Source: Solirubrobacterales bacterium
GTDB taxonomy: Bacteria > Actinomycetota > Thermoleophilia > Solirubrobacterales > 70-9
Direction: 5' to 3'
NCBI GenBank assembly: GCA_019456285.1
Contig: VRUE01000001.1
Coordinates: 48,626-83,776 of the forward strand
DNA: 35,151 nucleotides
Shown here: positions 20,264 to 26,527 of the stretch, piece after piece
Position numbering within the stretch: the first letter of the stretch is position 1
How the letters are laid out: each line of letters begins with the position of its first letter
Program-made: the position numbers and the translations under genes
The notes under the pieces: generated by a model
What the model saw: the letters and a program-made list of their open reading frames with translations, nothing else
What the model was told of the DNA's origin: nothing
The model's database searches: none

Positions 20264-20302
20264 TTCGGCGAAGCGACTGAGGGCGCGAAAACCGAGCAGG
20301 TC

Positions 20303-20375
20303 GGGGGATGCAGGGAGCCCGCCGATGCGAGCTTAGTTCAGACCTAAGTGAGCGAGGCGGGCGACCGAAGACCCC
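20303..20375. repeat. Hairpin repeat between rpsI and glmM
   Basis: Nested inverted repeat: GCCCGCC (20317-20323) pairs with GGCGGGC (20356-20362), and CTTAG (20332-20336) with CTAAG (20344-20348). It shares GCGAGC-TAGTT, CTA-GTGAGC and CCGA-GAC in order with the palindrome at 24838-24924, so it looks like a diverged relative. It could end or process the rplM-rpsI transcript. Confidence 0.55.
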
Positions 20376-20399
20376 GAGATGCGACGGTTTGCAGCGTCC

Positions 20400-21290
20400 T
20401 CAGCGCTTCGAGAACTGGGGCCGCTTGCGGGCCTTCTTCAACCCAGCCTTGCGGCGCTCCTTGACGCGCGCGTCGCGAGTCAGGAAACCGCGGCGCTTCA
20501 GCTCGCCGCGCAGCTCGGGATCGATCTCGGCCAGCGCCCGGGCTATCCCGTGGCGGACCGCCCCGGCCTGGCCGCTGATCCCGCCGCCGTGGACGCGGAT
20601 GCGGACATCGACGTTGCCCTCGTAGCCGGTCGTGGAGAGCGGCTGGCGGGCCATCGTCTGGTGCAGGGGCCGTGGGAAGAACTCCTCCAGGGCGCGCCTG
20701 TTGACCTCGATCTTGCCGCTGCCGGGCAGCAGGGTGACGCGGGCGATCGAGCGCTTGCGCTTGCCGGTGGCGAGGTAGCGGGCGCCGCTCTCCATCTTGG
20801 CGGGGGCGCGGCCGGCGGCTCTCGGCTCCTCCTCCGCGTCGCCGGCCAGCTTGGCCTCGCGGCGGGCGCGCTCCTCCCGCTCGGCCTCGCGGCGGGCGCG
20901 CTCCTCGGCGCTCAGCTTCTCCTCCTCGTCCTCGACCGCGATCGGCTCCAGGTCGGCGCCGGGAATCGCCTCCTTCTTCTCCTCAGCCTTCGGCTTCTCA
21001 GGCTCAGGCTCCTCGGGAGCCGGCTCAGCCGGCTCAGCGCCGCTGGCCTCGTCGTCCTCGGCGGCCGCTTCCTCCGCGGGTGGCGTCGAGGGCTCGCCCT
21101 CCGGCTCTGCCGCCTCGGCCACGGGCTCCTCGGCGGACTCAGCCTCGGCCTCGTCCGCGGGTGGCGTGGATGCGGGCTCGTCCGCGACAGGACCCGCGGG
21201 CACGGCGTCTGTGTCGTCGGGCTGCGGCTCCCGTGTCTCCTGCGGCTCTTCCGGCTGCTCTGAAGTCTTGTTGTCCTGCTCGTCTGTCAT
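20400..21290 (-). CDS. rpsI: 30S ribosomal protein S9 with a 170-residue acidic extension
   Basis: The C-terminal 125 residues are a normal uS9: [14 protein letters not shown] (172-185), [19 protein letters not shown] and the basic tail ending [12 protein letters not shown] that reaches the P site. Before it lie about 170 residues of low-complexity sequence rich in Glu, Pro and Ala, then a charged helical stretch with two copies of ERARREA (about 130-147). The latter is encoded by a 30-bp tandem repeat (20851-20910). The frame is open throughout and the ATG at 21290 overlaps the rplM stop (ATGA), which supports this start. Confidence 0.95.
20851..20910. repeat. 30-bp tandem repeat inside the S9 extension
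   Basis: Two direct copies of a 30-bp unit (20851-20880 and 20881-20910) share tggcctcgc/cggcctcgc then ggcgggcgcgctcctc. They encode the repeated charged segment of the S9 extension. The unit length is a multiple of three, so copy-number change keeps the frame. Confidence 0.7.
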
Positions 21291-21789: not shown

Positions 21790-21945
21790 CCCGAAAACCC
21801 GCGTGTGTGGCTGGCGAGCGCCGGACCAAGCGGGGCCAGGACGCAGGGAGGCCGAATAGTCGTGCGCTATTTGGCCGACTGAGGACGCAGCCCCGCGCAG
21901 CGTCCGCCGCCGCCAGGCGTGCGCGGGGGTTTCCGGGCAGTCACC
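21782..21945. repeat. 164-bp centred palindrome between divergent transcription units
   Basis: Outer arms 21782-21803 and 21922-21945 are near-perfect inverted repeats (ggtgactgcccg and its complement, then AAAACCC/GGGTTTC). GCGGGGC (21830-21836) pairs with GCCCCGC (21890-21896). The core GGCCGAATAG (21850-21859) pairs with CTATTTGGCC (21867-21876) around a 7-nt loop. All three pairs share one centre near 21863. The ends abut the rplM promoter and the riboswitch promoter. No gene is visible inside. Confidence 0.75.
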
Positions 21946-22117: not shown

Positions 22118-23104
22118 GTGGCACGGAGCGGGATCGGCGTCCGGTCGTGGTTGGCCGGGAAGGTGTTCACAGCCGCAGCGGCGGCGCTTCTGGCGAGCTT
22201 CGCCGGGGTAGCCTCAGCCGCGACCGGGGGCGCCCCGACGCCGAGCGGCGGCCCTCCGCTCCCGCCGAGCCCCACCGGCGTGCCGGCCGCCGGCGTCCCC
22301 AGCGCCGGGGCGCTGTACCTGATTTCCGCCAAGACCTCCCCGCGCAAGTCCTTCTACTACGGCGTCCGCTACCCGCGGCTCCGCTATGTGATCGGCAGCA
22401 GCCAGCCGCAGAACGACCTCCGCATCGACGTGGTCGACTCGACCGGCCGGGCCGTCAGGAGCTTCTACCGCAACGACGTCGCGCCAAACACGCCCAGCAG
22501 CATCCGCTGGGGCGGGACGACAGCCGGCGGGCGCCCCGCCCGCAACGGGCGCTACACCTTCCGGATCCTCCCGCAGGGCAGCGGACGTGCGGCACGGCGG
22601 GCTCGGTCGCAGTCGATGCGGCGGGCGAAGCGTCGCGCCTCCCAGTCGTCGCGGGCGCTCAGCCTCAGCTTCACCCTCTACAGATACGCGTTCCCGCTGC
22701 TCGGCGCCCACAACTACGGCGGCGCCGGGGCGCGCTTCGGCGCCGGCCGCTCCGGCCACACCCACCAGGGCCACGACGTGATGGCCAGGTGCGGAGTCCC
22801 TCTGATCGCCGCCCGGGGAGGGCGCGTCCAGCGCTCGGGCTACCAGGGCGCCGCCGGCAACCACATCGTGATCGACGGCAGGGGCACCGGCTTCGACACG
22901 GTCTACATGCACCTGCTGAAGCCGTCGCCGCTGAAGGCCGGCATGACCGTCCGCACCGGCCAGCTGATCGGCATGGTCGGCAGCACCGGCTCCTCCACCG
23001 CCTGCCACCTCCACTTCGAGATCTGGAGAAGCCCCGGATGGTACGAGGGGGGGCGCCCGGTCAATCCGCTCCCGTACCTGAAGAGGTGGGACCGCTACAG
23101 CTAA
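22118..23104 (+). CDS. Secreted M23 family peptidase
   Basis: A 328-residue LytM-type peptidoglycan endopeptidase. A signal peptide spans about residues 1-34 (cleavage near VASA-A), followed by a Pro/Gly-rich linker and an FlgD-like Ig segment (about 78-152, with RWGGTTAGGRPARNGRYTF). A basic linker and the M23 domain come next. Zinc ligands are H216 and D220 in HTHQGHD and H299 in CHLHFEIW; catalytic His residues are H265 (YMHL) and H297. The GTG start follows GAGAGGG. It lies directly behind a c-di-AMP riboswitch, so wall cleavage is probably tied to c-di-AMP. Confidence 0.93.
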   Translation: MARSGIGVRSWLAGKVFTAAAAALLASFAGVASAATGGAPTPSGGPPLPPSPTGVPAAGVPSAGALYLISAKTSPRKSFYYGVRYPRLRYVIGSSQPQNDLRIDVVDSTGRAVRSFYRNDVAPNTPSSIRWGGTTAGGRPARNGRYTFRILPQGSGRAARRARSQSMRRAKRRASQSSRALSLSFTLYRYAFPLLGAHNYGGAGARFGAGRSGHTHQGHDVMARCGVPLIAARGGRVQRSGYQGAAGNHIVIDGRGTGFDTVYMHLLKPSPLKAGMTVRTGQLIGMVGSTGSSTACHLHFEIWRSPGWYEGGRPVNPLPYLKRWDRYS

Positions 23105-23115
23105 AGTGAGGATGA

Positions 23116-23850
23116 ATGCCTGAGGTCGCGATACCGCTCTCGGCGCTTGCCGTGGCGGCGATCCTCAGCGGCGGTGCGGTCGCGCTGCGACTCGCCCACA
23201 CCCTGCCCACCGTGATCGCGCTCAGCGGCGGCATCGTCGTCGCGGTGGCCCTGCTGGAGGTCCTCCCGGAGGCAGTCGAGAACATCGGCGAGGTCCACGA
23301 CGCGGTGCCCTTCGTAGCCGTCGGGTTCCTCGGCTTCTTCCTGCTCGAGCGGGTGCTCGTCCTGCACCACCGCGACGACCCCGAGCAGGCGAGGGCGCAC
23401 GGCCGGGTCGGCGTGCTCGGCGCCCTGGGCCTCTCCCTGCACTCCTTCACGGACGGGGTCGGCATCGCGCTTGCCTTCAGCGTCAACACCGAGACCGGGC
23501 TGCTGGTCCTCCTCGCGGTCGTCAGCCACGGCTTCGCGGACGGGCTCAACACGGTCAGCTTCGTGCTCAGCCAGTCGGGCGATCGCGCCCGGGCGAGGCG
23601 CTGGCTGCGGATCGATGCGTTCGCGCCGCTCGCGGGCGCCGCGGTCGGGTCGCTGATCTCGGTCTCCGACCAGACCCTGGGCTACTTCCTCGCTCTGTAC
23701 GCGGGCTTCTTCCTCTATATGGGCGCCACCGACCTGCTGCCCGCCGCCCACGCCCACGAGCACGACGGCCACGGGTCATGGGGGCGGGTGGTCCTGACCG
23801 TCGCCGGTTTCGGCGGCATCTACGCGATCACCCTGCTCGGCCACCCCTGA
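23116..23850 (+). CDS. ZIP family divalent metal transporter
   Basis: A 244-residue membrane protein with about eight helices. The ZIP metal-site helices IV and V are visible as LHSFTDGVGIALAF (about 110-124) and VVSHGFADGLNTVSFV (about 139-154). They show the HxxxD pattern, with Asp in the place often held by Glu. A His-rich C-terminal loop (AAHAHEHDGHG, about 213-223) could bind metal. It imports zinc or a similar metal into the cytoplasm. The ATG lies 12 nt after the M23 stop with a GTGAGG ribosome site, so both genes may share the riboswitch transcript. Confidence 0.9.
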   Translation: MPEVAIPLSALAVAAILSGGAVALRLAHTLPTVIALSGGIVVAVALLEVLPEAVENIGEVHDAVPFVAVGFLGFFLLERVLVLHHRDDPEQARAHGRVGVLGALGLSLHSFTDGVGIALAFSVNTETGLLVLLAVVSHGFADGLNTVSFVLSQSGDRARARRWLRIDAFAPLAGAAVGSLISVSDQTLGYFLALYAGFFLYMGATDLLPAAHAHEHDGHGSWGRVVLTVAGFGGIYAITLLGHP

Positions 23851-23853
23851 CGG

Positions 23854-23960
23854 GCCAGAACGCCGCCTGGCGTCGTCCTCGGCAAATCGCCTTGCTCACG
23901 TAGGAATAACTACGCGCGCCGCGACAATTTGCCTGCGTCCTACCCAGGCGGCGTTCTGGC
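23854..23960. repeat. 107-bp palindromic repeat, copy 1
   Basis: Perfect 17-bp arms (gccagaacgccgcctgg at 23854-23870 and its complement at 23944-23960) enclose GGCAAAT (23881-23887) paired with ATTTGCC (23927-23933). The tip is CGTAG-gaataa-CTACG (23899-23914). All pairs share the centre 23907. It lies 3 nt after the ZIP gene, between convergent genes. Confidence 0.85.
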
Positions 23961-23963
23961 CGC

Positions 23964-24070
23964 GTCAGCGCCCCGTCCAGCGTCGTCCTCGGCAAATCGC
24001 CTTGCTCACGTAGGAATAACTACGCTCGCCGCGACAATTTGCCTGCGTCCTACCCAGGCGGGGTCCTGAC
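23964..24070. repeat. 107-bp palindromic repeat, copy 2 (direct tandem)
   Basis: The core is almost identical to copy 1 at a period of 110 bp (23871-23972 against 23981-24082). The outer arms differ from copy 1 yet still pair with each other (gtcagcgccccgtccag at 23964-23980 against the complement of 24053-24070), which points to a preserved stem. The copy also encodes the C-terminal tail and stop of the membrane-protein gene on the minus strand. Confidence 0.85.
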
Positions 24071-24837
24071 CGCGTCAGCGCCAGGGCGAGCGCCACCGGG
24101 ACGGTCGCCGGCAGGGTGTCGACCGCGAAGAAAAGCAGGTCGAAGCCGAGAGCGAAGACGGCGACGAGGAGGGCGCCTTCGAGCTGGCGGCGGCGGGCGC
24201 CGGCCAGCAGGCAGCCGACCGTGGCGGCGACGAAGGCGTCGCCGAACCCCATCCGGGCGGAGCCGAACTCGAGCACCTGCAGGCGGGGCAGCCCACCCGG
24301 GGCGGCGGCGCTGAGGACGGCGCTCGGCCCCTGCAGCAGCTCCGCCGCGACCAGCGCCGCGTCGACCGCGGCCATCGCGTAGATCCCCAGCCGCAGCCAG
24401 GGGGCGGGCACAACGCAGACCAGGAGCCAGCCGAGGGCGATGCAGGCAAGACCCGAGAGCGCCGCGGCGGCGCTCTCGCCCGCGAGCGAGCCCTGCGCCG
24501 CCCAGGCGAGCGCGAAGAGAACCGGGGCCGCAAGCGCCCACGCCGACCGCGAGCCGTGCAGGAGCGAGCCAAGCGCCAGCGCCGCGAGCGGCGGGACCGC
24601 GACCAGCGCCAGGTAGGCGAGCGCGGTCGCCGAGTCGCTGCTGACCCCGACGACCGCGACCACGACGACGATCGAGAGCGCCGGCGCCAACGCCCACCAC
24701 GGGCTGCGAAGCGAGCGTACCCAACCCGGCTGCCGCGGCCGCGGCAGCGCGACCAAGCTCGCCTGGAAGAGGCTCAGAACGGCTATGGAGACAACGAACG
24801 ACGGCACGTGAACATTCTGGTGACTCGGCCCGGACAT
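23965..24837 (-). CDS. Putative presenilin-like GxGD intramembrane aspartyl protease
   Basis: A 290-residue membrane protein with about nine predicted helices (roughly 13-31, 46-64, 70-93, 100-118, 122-145, 148-166, 195-213, 219-239, 242-256). Presenilin/prepilin-peptidase features appear in order: D159 in MAAVDAALV (sixth helix), G197-F-G-D200 in MGFGDAFVAA (seventh helix) and a PAL-like PATVP (243-247) before the last helix. This spacing fits GxGD proteases, but the assignment is mine and unproven. The last 35 residues are encoded by palindromic repeat copy 2. The ATG at 24837 abuts repeat copy 3 and has no good ribosome site; GTG near 24807 is an alternative. Confidence 0.6.
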   Translation of the reverse strand: MSGPSHQNVHVPSFVVSIAVLSLFQASLVALPRPRQPGWVRSLRSPWWALAPALSIVVVVAVVGVSSDSATALAYLALVAVPPLAALALGSLLHGSRSAWALAAPVLFALAWAAQGSLAGESAAAALSGLACIALGWLLVCVVPAPWLRLGIYAMAAVDAALVAAELLQGPSAVLSAAAPGGLPRLQVLEFGSARMGFGDAFVAATVGCLLAGARRRQLEGALLVAVFALGFDLLFFAVDTLPATVPVALALALTRSGPRLGRTQANCRGERSYSYVSKAICRGRRWTGR

Positions 24838-24924
24838 CGCCTGGGTAGGACGCAGGCAAACCGGCGCAGCGAGCGTAGTTATATCTACGTGAGCAAGACG
24901 ATTTGCCGAGGACACCGCCAGGCG
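24838..24924. repeat. Palindromic repeat, copy 3 (inverted)
   Basis: This is the same element as copies 1 and 2 but in opposite orientation: CGCCTGG (24838-24844) pairs with CCAGGCG (24918-24924), around GGCAAA/TTTGCC and a CGTAG/CTACG-type tip, centred at 24881. It starts 16 nt after the guaA stop and ends at the membrane-protein start, so it could end the guaA transcript. Confidence 0.85.
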
Positions 24925-24940
24925 CTCTCCTGACCCGTCA

Positions 24941-26527
24941 TCACTCCCACTCGATCGTTGCGGGAGGCTTCGAGGAGATGTCGAGGGCGACCCGGTTGAC
25001 GCCGCGGATCTCGTTGATGATCCGGCTGGAGACACGCTCCAGCAGGTCGTATGGCAGGCGCGCCCAGTCGGCCGTCATCGCGTCGTCGGAGGTGACGGCG
25101 CGGATCACGATCGGATAGGCGTAGGTGCGGCCGTCGCCCTGCACGCCGACCGAGCGGACAACCGGCAGCACGCAGAAGGACTGCCAGAGCCGTCGGTAGA
25201 GCTCGGCGGCGCGGATCTCCTCCTGCAGGATCGCGTCCGCGGCCCTCAGGATGTCGAGCCTCTCCTTCGTCACCTCGCCGCCGACGATCCGGATCGCCAG
25301 GCCCGGTCCGGGGAAGGGCTGGCGCCAGACCATCCGCTCGGGCAGGTCGAGCTCGGCGCCGACCACCCGCACCTCGTCCTTGAACAGCATCCGCAGCGGC
25401 TCGACCAGCTCGAAGTCGAGGTCCTCGGGCAGGCCGCCGACGTTGTGGTGGGACTTGATCGTGTCGGCGCCGTCGCTACCGCCCGACTCGATCACGTCGG
25501 AGTAGAGGGTGCCCTGGACCAGGTAGCGGACATCCTCCAGCTTCGCCGCCTCCTCCTCGAAGACCCGGATGAACTCCTCGCCGATGATCTTGCGCTTTCG
25601 CTCGGGGTCGTCGACCCCGGCCAGCCTGGCGAGGAAACGCTCCTCGGCGTCGACACGGACCAGCGGGATGCCGAACCGGCCGAACGCCTCGACCACCTGC
25701 TCGCCCTCGTTCAACCGCATCAGGCCGTGATCGACGAAGACGCAGGTCAGCCTCTCCCCCACCGCCCGGTGGACGAGCAGCGCCGCGACCGAGGAGTCGA
25801 CCCCGCCGGAGAGGCCGCAGATCACCCGCCCGTCGCCGACCTGAGCCTTGACCTTGGCAACCTGCTCGGCGATCACCGACTCGGGTGACCACCCCTGCTC
25901 GCATCCGGCGATCTCGCGCAGGAAGCGGGTGAGGACCTCGGTCCCGTAGGGAGTGTGGACGACCTCGGGGTGGAACTGGATGCCGTAGAGACCGCGCTCG
26001 GGGAGCTCGCAGGCGGCGACCGGCGAGCCGGGGCTGGAGGCGAGCGCGGCGAACCCTTCGGGCGGCTCGAAGACGGTGTCGCGGTGGCTCATCCAGCAGC
26101 TCTGCTCCTCCGGCAGACCGCCCAGCAGCCGGCCGCCGCCGCCGCGCAGGGTCAGCTCGGTACGCCCGAACTCCCCCGCCTCGGCCCCCTCGACCCTGCC
26201 GCCCAGCGCCTTGACCATCGCCTGCATCCCGTAGCAGACGCCCAGCATCGGTATCTCGAGGTCGAGCAGCTCGGTCGGGAACGGCGGCGCCCCCGGCTCG
26301 TAGACCGACGCCGGGCCGCCGGAGAGGACCAGCGCCTTCGGCGCCCGCTCCCGAATGACCTCAACCGGAGTCGTCGACGGCAGCAGCTCCGCAAAGACGC
26401 CGCACTCGCGGATCCTCCTGGCGATCAGCTGCGAGTACTGGCCCCCGAAGTCGAGGACGAGGACCTCCTCGGAGGTCTGGGCCGGCGCCGAGGCAGCGCC
26501 GGCCTCAGTCGTCGACGACTCCGACAC
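24941..26527 (-). CDS. guaA: GMP synthase (glutamine-hydrolysing)
   Basis: A 528-residue enzyme converting XMP to GMP. The class I glutamine amidotransferase domain has C98 in LGVCYGMQ with H186 and E188 in FHPEVVHT. The ATP-pyrophosphatase domain has the PP-loop SGGVDSS (240-246), and the C-terminal dimerisation domain has [13 protein letters not shown] and the end KPPATIEWE. About 19 poorly conserved residues precede the core ([12 protein letters not shown]). The GTG start at 26527 lies 23 nt inside the end of guaB3, so the two are coupled. Confidence 0.97.

Follow-up and report, generated by a model that had tools for sequence, protein, structure and literature searches.

Intramembrane aspartyl proteases of the presenilin and signal peptide peptidase (SPP) type have been described in archaea and eukaryotes (open-access literature), and the motifs YD and GXGD are named as their signatures (PMC2947513). 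The closest described systems are SPP and the SPP-like proteins (SPPL; MEROPS A22B), presenilin 1 in gamma-secretase (A22A) and the archaeal PSH/MCMJR1. Here we analyse a gene within a stretch of 35,151 nt, referred to in its full length as the window (G000:C42:48626-83776), from the 2.1-Mb, 146-contig assembly of a Solirubrobacterales-like soil bacterium (class Thermoleophilia). The likely product of this gene is a bacterial intramembrane aspartyl protease of the GxGD type, with a presenilin/SPP fold. Searches of the open-access literature, not including the survey of Raut et al. 2021, found no account of a bacterial protease of this type, and we make no claim of priority. The gene and the parts of its product on which the assignment turns are as follows.

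23965-24837, minus strand: gene for the presenilin/SPP-fold protein of 290 residues, studied by translation, alignments A1 and A2, AlphaFold, Foldseek and the ratio of nonsynonymous to synonymous divergence (dN/dS)
near 24361-24363, minus strand: codon of Asp159 (D159)
near 24238-24240, minus strand: codon of Asp200 (D200)
residues 13-30, 46-65, 68-92, 98-113, 118-142, 145-164, 198-211, 215-237 and 245-256 of the product: membrane helices TM1 to TM9 in the AlphaFold model

Translation bears out the product described in an earlier sequence-only reading of this DNA, with D159, GFGD (D200) and PATVP at residues 243-247. That reading had placed the first Asp in the sixth of about nine helices, GFGD in the seventh and PATVP at the last, and AlphaFold, run on the window protein with alignment A2, upholds this. 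The model contains nine membrane helices and two short helices. D159 lies in TM6, whereas TM7 and TM9 carry D200 and PATVP, respectively, at their starts; two short strands immediately precede the D200 helix. The predicted local distance difference test score (pLDDT) is 87.5. Most blocks of the core exceed 90, and confidence is low (about 48-57) in the tail, exactly where hairpin copy b, described below, encodes the protein. The homologue from Solirubrobacter soli DSM 22325 (L079:5992-6789), its Asp pair being D150 and D192, was modelled with a pLDDT of 94.5 and a predicted TM-score of 0.90, again with nine transmembrane helices; most of the alignment is common to the two models, which are therefore not fully independent. 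In Foldseek searches against PDB, ranks 1-8 for the window protein were SPPL2a, PSEN1 (several entries) and archaeal PSH (probability 0.80-1.00, TMq 0.36-0.57), and the later matches listed all had probabilities of 0.33 or less. For the Solirubrobacter soli model, ranks 1-6 were SPPL2a and PSEN1 at 0.99-1.00, followed by a match at 0.11. For both models only A22 structures match with high probability, the next matches lying at 0.08-0.33.

The catalytic motifs were analysed in two alignments, A1 with 18 sequences gathered without a motif filter and A2 with 63 sequences from a search seeded with the GxGD pattern, in which D159 was not selected for. D159, G199, D200, P243, T245 and P247 are invariant in both, the invariance of D200 in A2 being partly by construction because of the seeding. 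Nearly all members of A1 and A2 carry GFGD or GYGD, one member of A1 having DYGD. A profile search added 13 further Thermoleophilia sequences, all of which keep both Asp residues. No homologue lacking the two Asp residues was found among the full-length homologues read, and this constant pair, together with SPPL2a, PSEN1 and PSH as top structural matches, gives the presenilin-like reading good support. The Tyr of the YD signature is absent; the residue preceding D159 is V, I, L, G or A in A1.

Loop charges point to the orientation of the protein in the membrane. The mean numbers of Lys and Arg are 4.05, 1.75, 0.78, 1.97 and 4.37 in loops 1, 3, 5 and 7 and the C terminus, and 0.11, 0.43, 0.73, 1.10 and 0.11 in the N terminus and loops 2, 4, 6 and 8, in sum 12.9 versus 2.5. 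Because of this bias, the positive-inside rule predicts that the N terminus lies outside and the C terminus inside, which is the SPP orientation. SPP has a lumenal N terminus and a cytosolic C terminus. Its topology is opposite to that of presenilin, and it cleaves type II membrane proteins (PMC2947513). From the SPP orientation we infer that the likely substrates are helices entering with the N terminus inside (type II), most likely leftover signal peptides or small membrane proteins. In the proposed mechanism, D159 and D200 would face each other, activate water and cut transmembrane helices, and the substrate would be held by PATVP together with the pair of short strands that precede TM7.

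Among the described systems, SPPL2a (9k93, 9k92) of the SPP/SPPL group is the top Foldseek match for both models. SPP/SPPL and our family have in common nine helices, Asp residues in TM6 and TM7, a PAL-like motif at TM9 and a single chain, with the N-out/C-in orientation predicted for our family. However, the Thermoleophilia family is bacterial, shares 11-14% identity, consists of a core of about 255 residues without an accessory domain, carries PATVP in place of PAL, is missed by Pfam and is a protease by prediction. Presenilin 1 (6lqg, 6iyc, 8oqz) has the same helix order and the same order of GxGD and PAL-like motifs (Foldseek probability 0.99-1.00), whereas the bacterial family has no large loop between TM6 and TM7, has the opposite predicted orientation and is not expected to need nicastrin, APH-1 or PEN-2 as partners. 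PSH/MCMJR1 (4hyg, 4y6k) is, like the predicted enzyme, a prokaryotic single-chain A22 protease and matches the window protein with probabilities of 0.96-0.99; but it is archaeal, archaeal controls are matched by the Pfam SPP model PF06550 while the Thermoleophilia family is not, and the identity is 11%. Since YD and a match to a curated profile are both missing and PAL is only partly kept, the family is best described as a new one beside the curated A22 families, predicted to fold and work like SPP and presenilin.

Several observations weigh against the assignment. Sequence and profile searches of the family against Pfam, NCBIfam and PDB gave nothing significant and no A22 match. PF06550 found nothing over the cut-off in the relatives' genomes, with four weak sub-cut-off matches at positions other than this gene, and had no match in the phylum genome sample; it does match in the Haloferax and Methanosarcina controls. 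The Foldseek E-values are modest (best 4e-4), with TM-scores of 0.36-0.59 and identities of 11-17%. The third motif, with which TM9 starts, reads P-A-T-V/L-P in A1 and A2: it keeps the P and A of PAL and has T in place of L. Among the 13 distant members P243 is replaced by Ala in two, and the second-Asp motif of distant members is altered from GxGD to GWGD or GW[LM]D, the Asp itself always being kept. No conserved substrate or operon partner was found among the neighbours at the loci examined. In a separate search of PDB, a PSEN1 C-terminal query retrieved presenilins only and no PSH sequence.

These observations bear on three other explanations of the protein. The changes of PAL to PAT and, in distant members, of GxGD to GW[LM]D would suit a protein that has kept the presenilin/SPP fold without being a protease and uses the Asp pair in an ion, lipid or chaperone-like role. 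We judge this unlikely, because a pseudo-enzyme of this kind would be expected to have lost the Asp pair, whereas every full-length homologue read has both residues; T245, P247 and mostly G197 are also kept in the close family. That no sequence profile supports the homology would fit a polytopic membrane protein with presenilin-like motifs by coincidence, yet motif order, spacing, helix placement, conservation and fold all agree, and two models give A22 matches only, so that coincidence is very improbable. It is scarcely credible that the protein is a prepilin-peptidase-like (A24) enzyme processing type IV pilin-like leader peptides. The GxGD motif is common to both, and one of the 63 members has a weak Peptidase_A24 match (E = 0.036), but the other 62 have none, the fold matches A22 with no A24 structure among the Foldseek matches listed, P-A-T-x-P at TM9 fits A22, and pilin genes are not among the recurrent neighbours. 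A presenilin/SPP-type protease thus remains the preferred reading.

Homologues of the gene were found in 18 of the 61 relatives and in 42 of 199 Thermoleophilia genomes sampled, and a collection of 84,980 species genomes yielded 72 loci. In a sample of 296 genomes of the phylum they were found in four, all Thermoleophilia, and the family was not found in the other Actinomycetota of this sample. Homologues with named records come nearly all from Solirubrobacterales or other Thermoleophilia. Within the genus, the protein core has a dN of 0.22-0.26 and a dS of 0.71-0.89 (dN/dS about 0.3), and is therefore under purifying selection. Thermoleophilia thus contain a family of unannotated, constrained, nine-helix membrane proteins. 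On balance, we favour the wider view that this class holds a bacterial branch of the presenilin/SPP proteases that is beyond the reach of sequence profiles, is oriented like SPP and has an active Asp pair. If so, A22-type intramembrane proteolysis would not be limited to archaea and eukaryotes, and the compact single-chain proteins of culturable strains of Solirubrobacter and Patulibacter would be new models of gamma-secretase and SPP, suited to structure and inhibitor work. Such a branch would bear on the origin of both enzymes, and it raises the question of how Thermoleophilia clear signal peptides or regulate membrane proteins.

The recurrent neighbours of the family are genes for PEPCK (17 loci), RmuC (13), Nramp (13) and CtaA (11), with thioredoxin-like genes at others. 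In one subset, comprising L040:2441-3484 and ten further loci, the presenilin-fold gene follows the heme A synthase (CtaA) gene in the same orientation at a distance of 4-25 nt, and the two may be co-transcribed. Three genomes (G053, G154 and G225) have two paralogues each of the presenilin-fold gene. At L158, L160 and L162-L165 the second-Asp motif shows an unusual variation, GW[LM]D, with both Asp kept. One homologue (L091, CAJCHW010000074.1) comes from a bin assigned to Chlamydiae; the contig is most probably from Solirubrobacterales and was misbinned or mislabelled.

In the window, the gene lies between copies of a long palindrome, in the following surroundings.

22118-23104, plus strand: M23 peptidase gene, adjoining the ZIP gene
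23116-23850, plus strand: ZIP-family metal transporter gene (Pfam PF02535), converging on the putative protease gene; owner of hairpin a
23851-23960, gene-sense plus: hairpin copy a, at the ZIP stop codon (repeat search, covariance model)
23961-24077, gene-sense plus: hairpin copy b, tandem duplicate of a, whose minus-strand reading encodes protein residues 255-290
24821-24940, gene-sense minus: hairpin copy c, at the guaA stop codon (repeat search, covariance model)
24941-26527, minus strand: guaA (GMP synthase; Pfam PF00958 and PF00117), upstream of the putative protease gene and co-oriented with it; hairpin c belongs to guaA
26505-27710, minus strand: IMP-dehydrogenase-like gene, beyond guaA

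Copies a and b are identical at 98 of 110 nt, and the inverted copy c (120 nt) is 83% complementary; chance cannot plausibly account for three copies of 110-120 nt, over 80% identical, in a stretch of 1.1 kb. The sequence-only reading had put one inverted copy directly before the ATG and had the two tandem copies encode the last 35 residues. Copy c is indeed there, with the ATG at 24837 falling inside it rather than after it, and of the tandem copies b alone encodes the end of the protein, a lying past the stop codon. Since the ATG is inside hairpin c and the proteins of relatives begin about 10-11 residues further downstream, translation may truly start at V11, whose GTG codon (24807) lies immediately outside the hairpin. 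Copy b is a tandem duplicate of the ZIP hairpin; it extends into the 3' part of the putative protease gene and supplies a disordered tail of 36 residues.

The inverted arrangement had also suggested a mobile cassette or a gene trapped between terminator repeats, and comparison with relatives that carry the gene without the full set of repeats does not sustain this. In G002, of the same genus, the ZIP gene, the homologue and guaA follow in this same order, and one hairpin was recognised, in the interval that separates the homologue from guaA. In G001, also of this genus, guaA adjoins the homologue and the search recognised no hairpin, although the intergenic sequence resembles a decayed hairpin by eye. 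We therefore reject a cassette carried by the palindromes: the gene does lie between inverted copies in the window, but it keeps its place beside guaA with one or no recognised hairpin, dozens of hairpins elsewhere have no such gene, and copies a and c begin at the stop codons of the neighbours, the ZIP gene and guaA. The palindromes do not belong to the protease system. They are the 3'-end hairpins of two neighbouring genes, ZIP and guaA, and the inverted arrangement arises because the 3' end of each neighbour carries one.

The hairpins constitute a second finding, a candidate new class of terminators or RNAs. A BLAST search had suggested only three palindrome copies in the genome, which is wrong: a covariance model built from eight copies finds at least 38 in the window's own genome and copies in 42 of 61 relatives; individual related genomes carry between 0 and at least 42. 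A broader model (R2) finds copies in 47 of 119 sampled Thermoleophilia genomes and in three sampled genomes outside the class. The family consists of dispersed hairpins of 105-128 nt (L169-L228) in Thermoleophilia and a few other Actinomycetota. In gene sense, fixed internal-loop blocks, GCTGCAAACC, GTCCTCGG, CTGCGTCC and CTTGGTTTTCGC, alternate with stems whose two sides both vary. Pair-keeping double changes, in counts that ignore kinship, occur at 15 of 29 pairs in alignment A3, 18 of 20 in A4 (which was fitted to the covariance model) and 13 of 14 in A6. With genes called by a codon-position GC heuristic, a stop codon lies within 25 nt of an end in 52 of 78 copies, versus 3.7% of random placements; of the 46 copies at which exactly one gene ends, 37 share the same strand relative to that gene.

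The hairpins are probably termination or mRNA 3'-end structures. It is possible, if rather doubtful, that they are selfish repeats inserting at gene ends with no role in transcription, as the tandem duplication at the locus and the variable copy number among related genomes would suggest; against this, the stems vary on both sides while the internal-loop blocks stay fixed, and the strand bias relative to the gene ending there is 37:9. Both readings, selfish repeat and 3'-end role, may hold together. An integron attC origin is rejected, as copies occur in both orientations and beside housekeeping genes. REP and GTAG-tagged palindromic repeats (PMC3733652) are likewise dispersed bacterial palindromes mostly outside coding cores, but they measure 20-40 bp, whereas the present hairpins are far longer, have several fixed internal-loop blocks, stand at stop codons with a strand bias and are not in Rfam. 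A search of the hairpin loci against Rfam gave no family at the gathering threshold and only weak matches elsewhere in the loci.

A further hairpin copy is found in the window at 20277-20404, at the end of rpsI, and a weaker match to the hairpin model at 21812-21919, between ribosomal protein genes and a c-di-AMP riboswitch. This riboswitch (RF00379; 21955-22115) lies directly upstream of the M23 peptidase gene.
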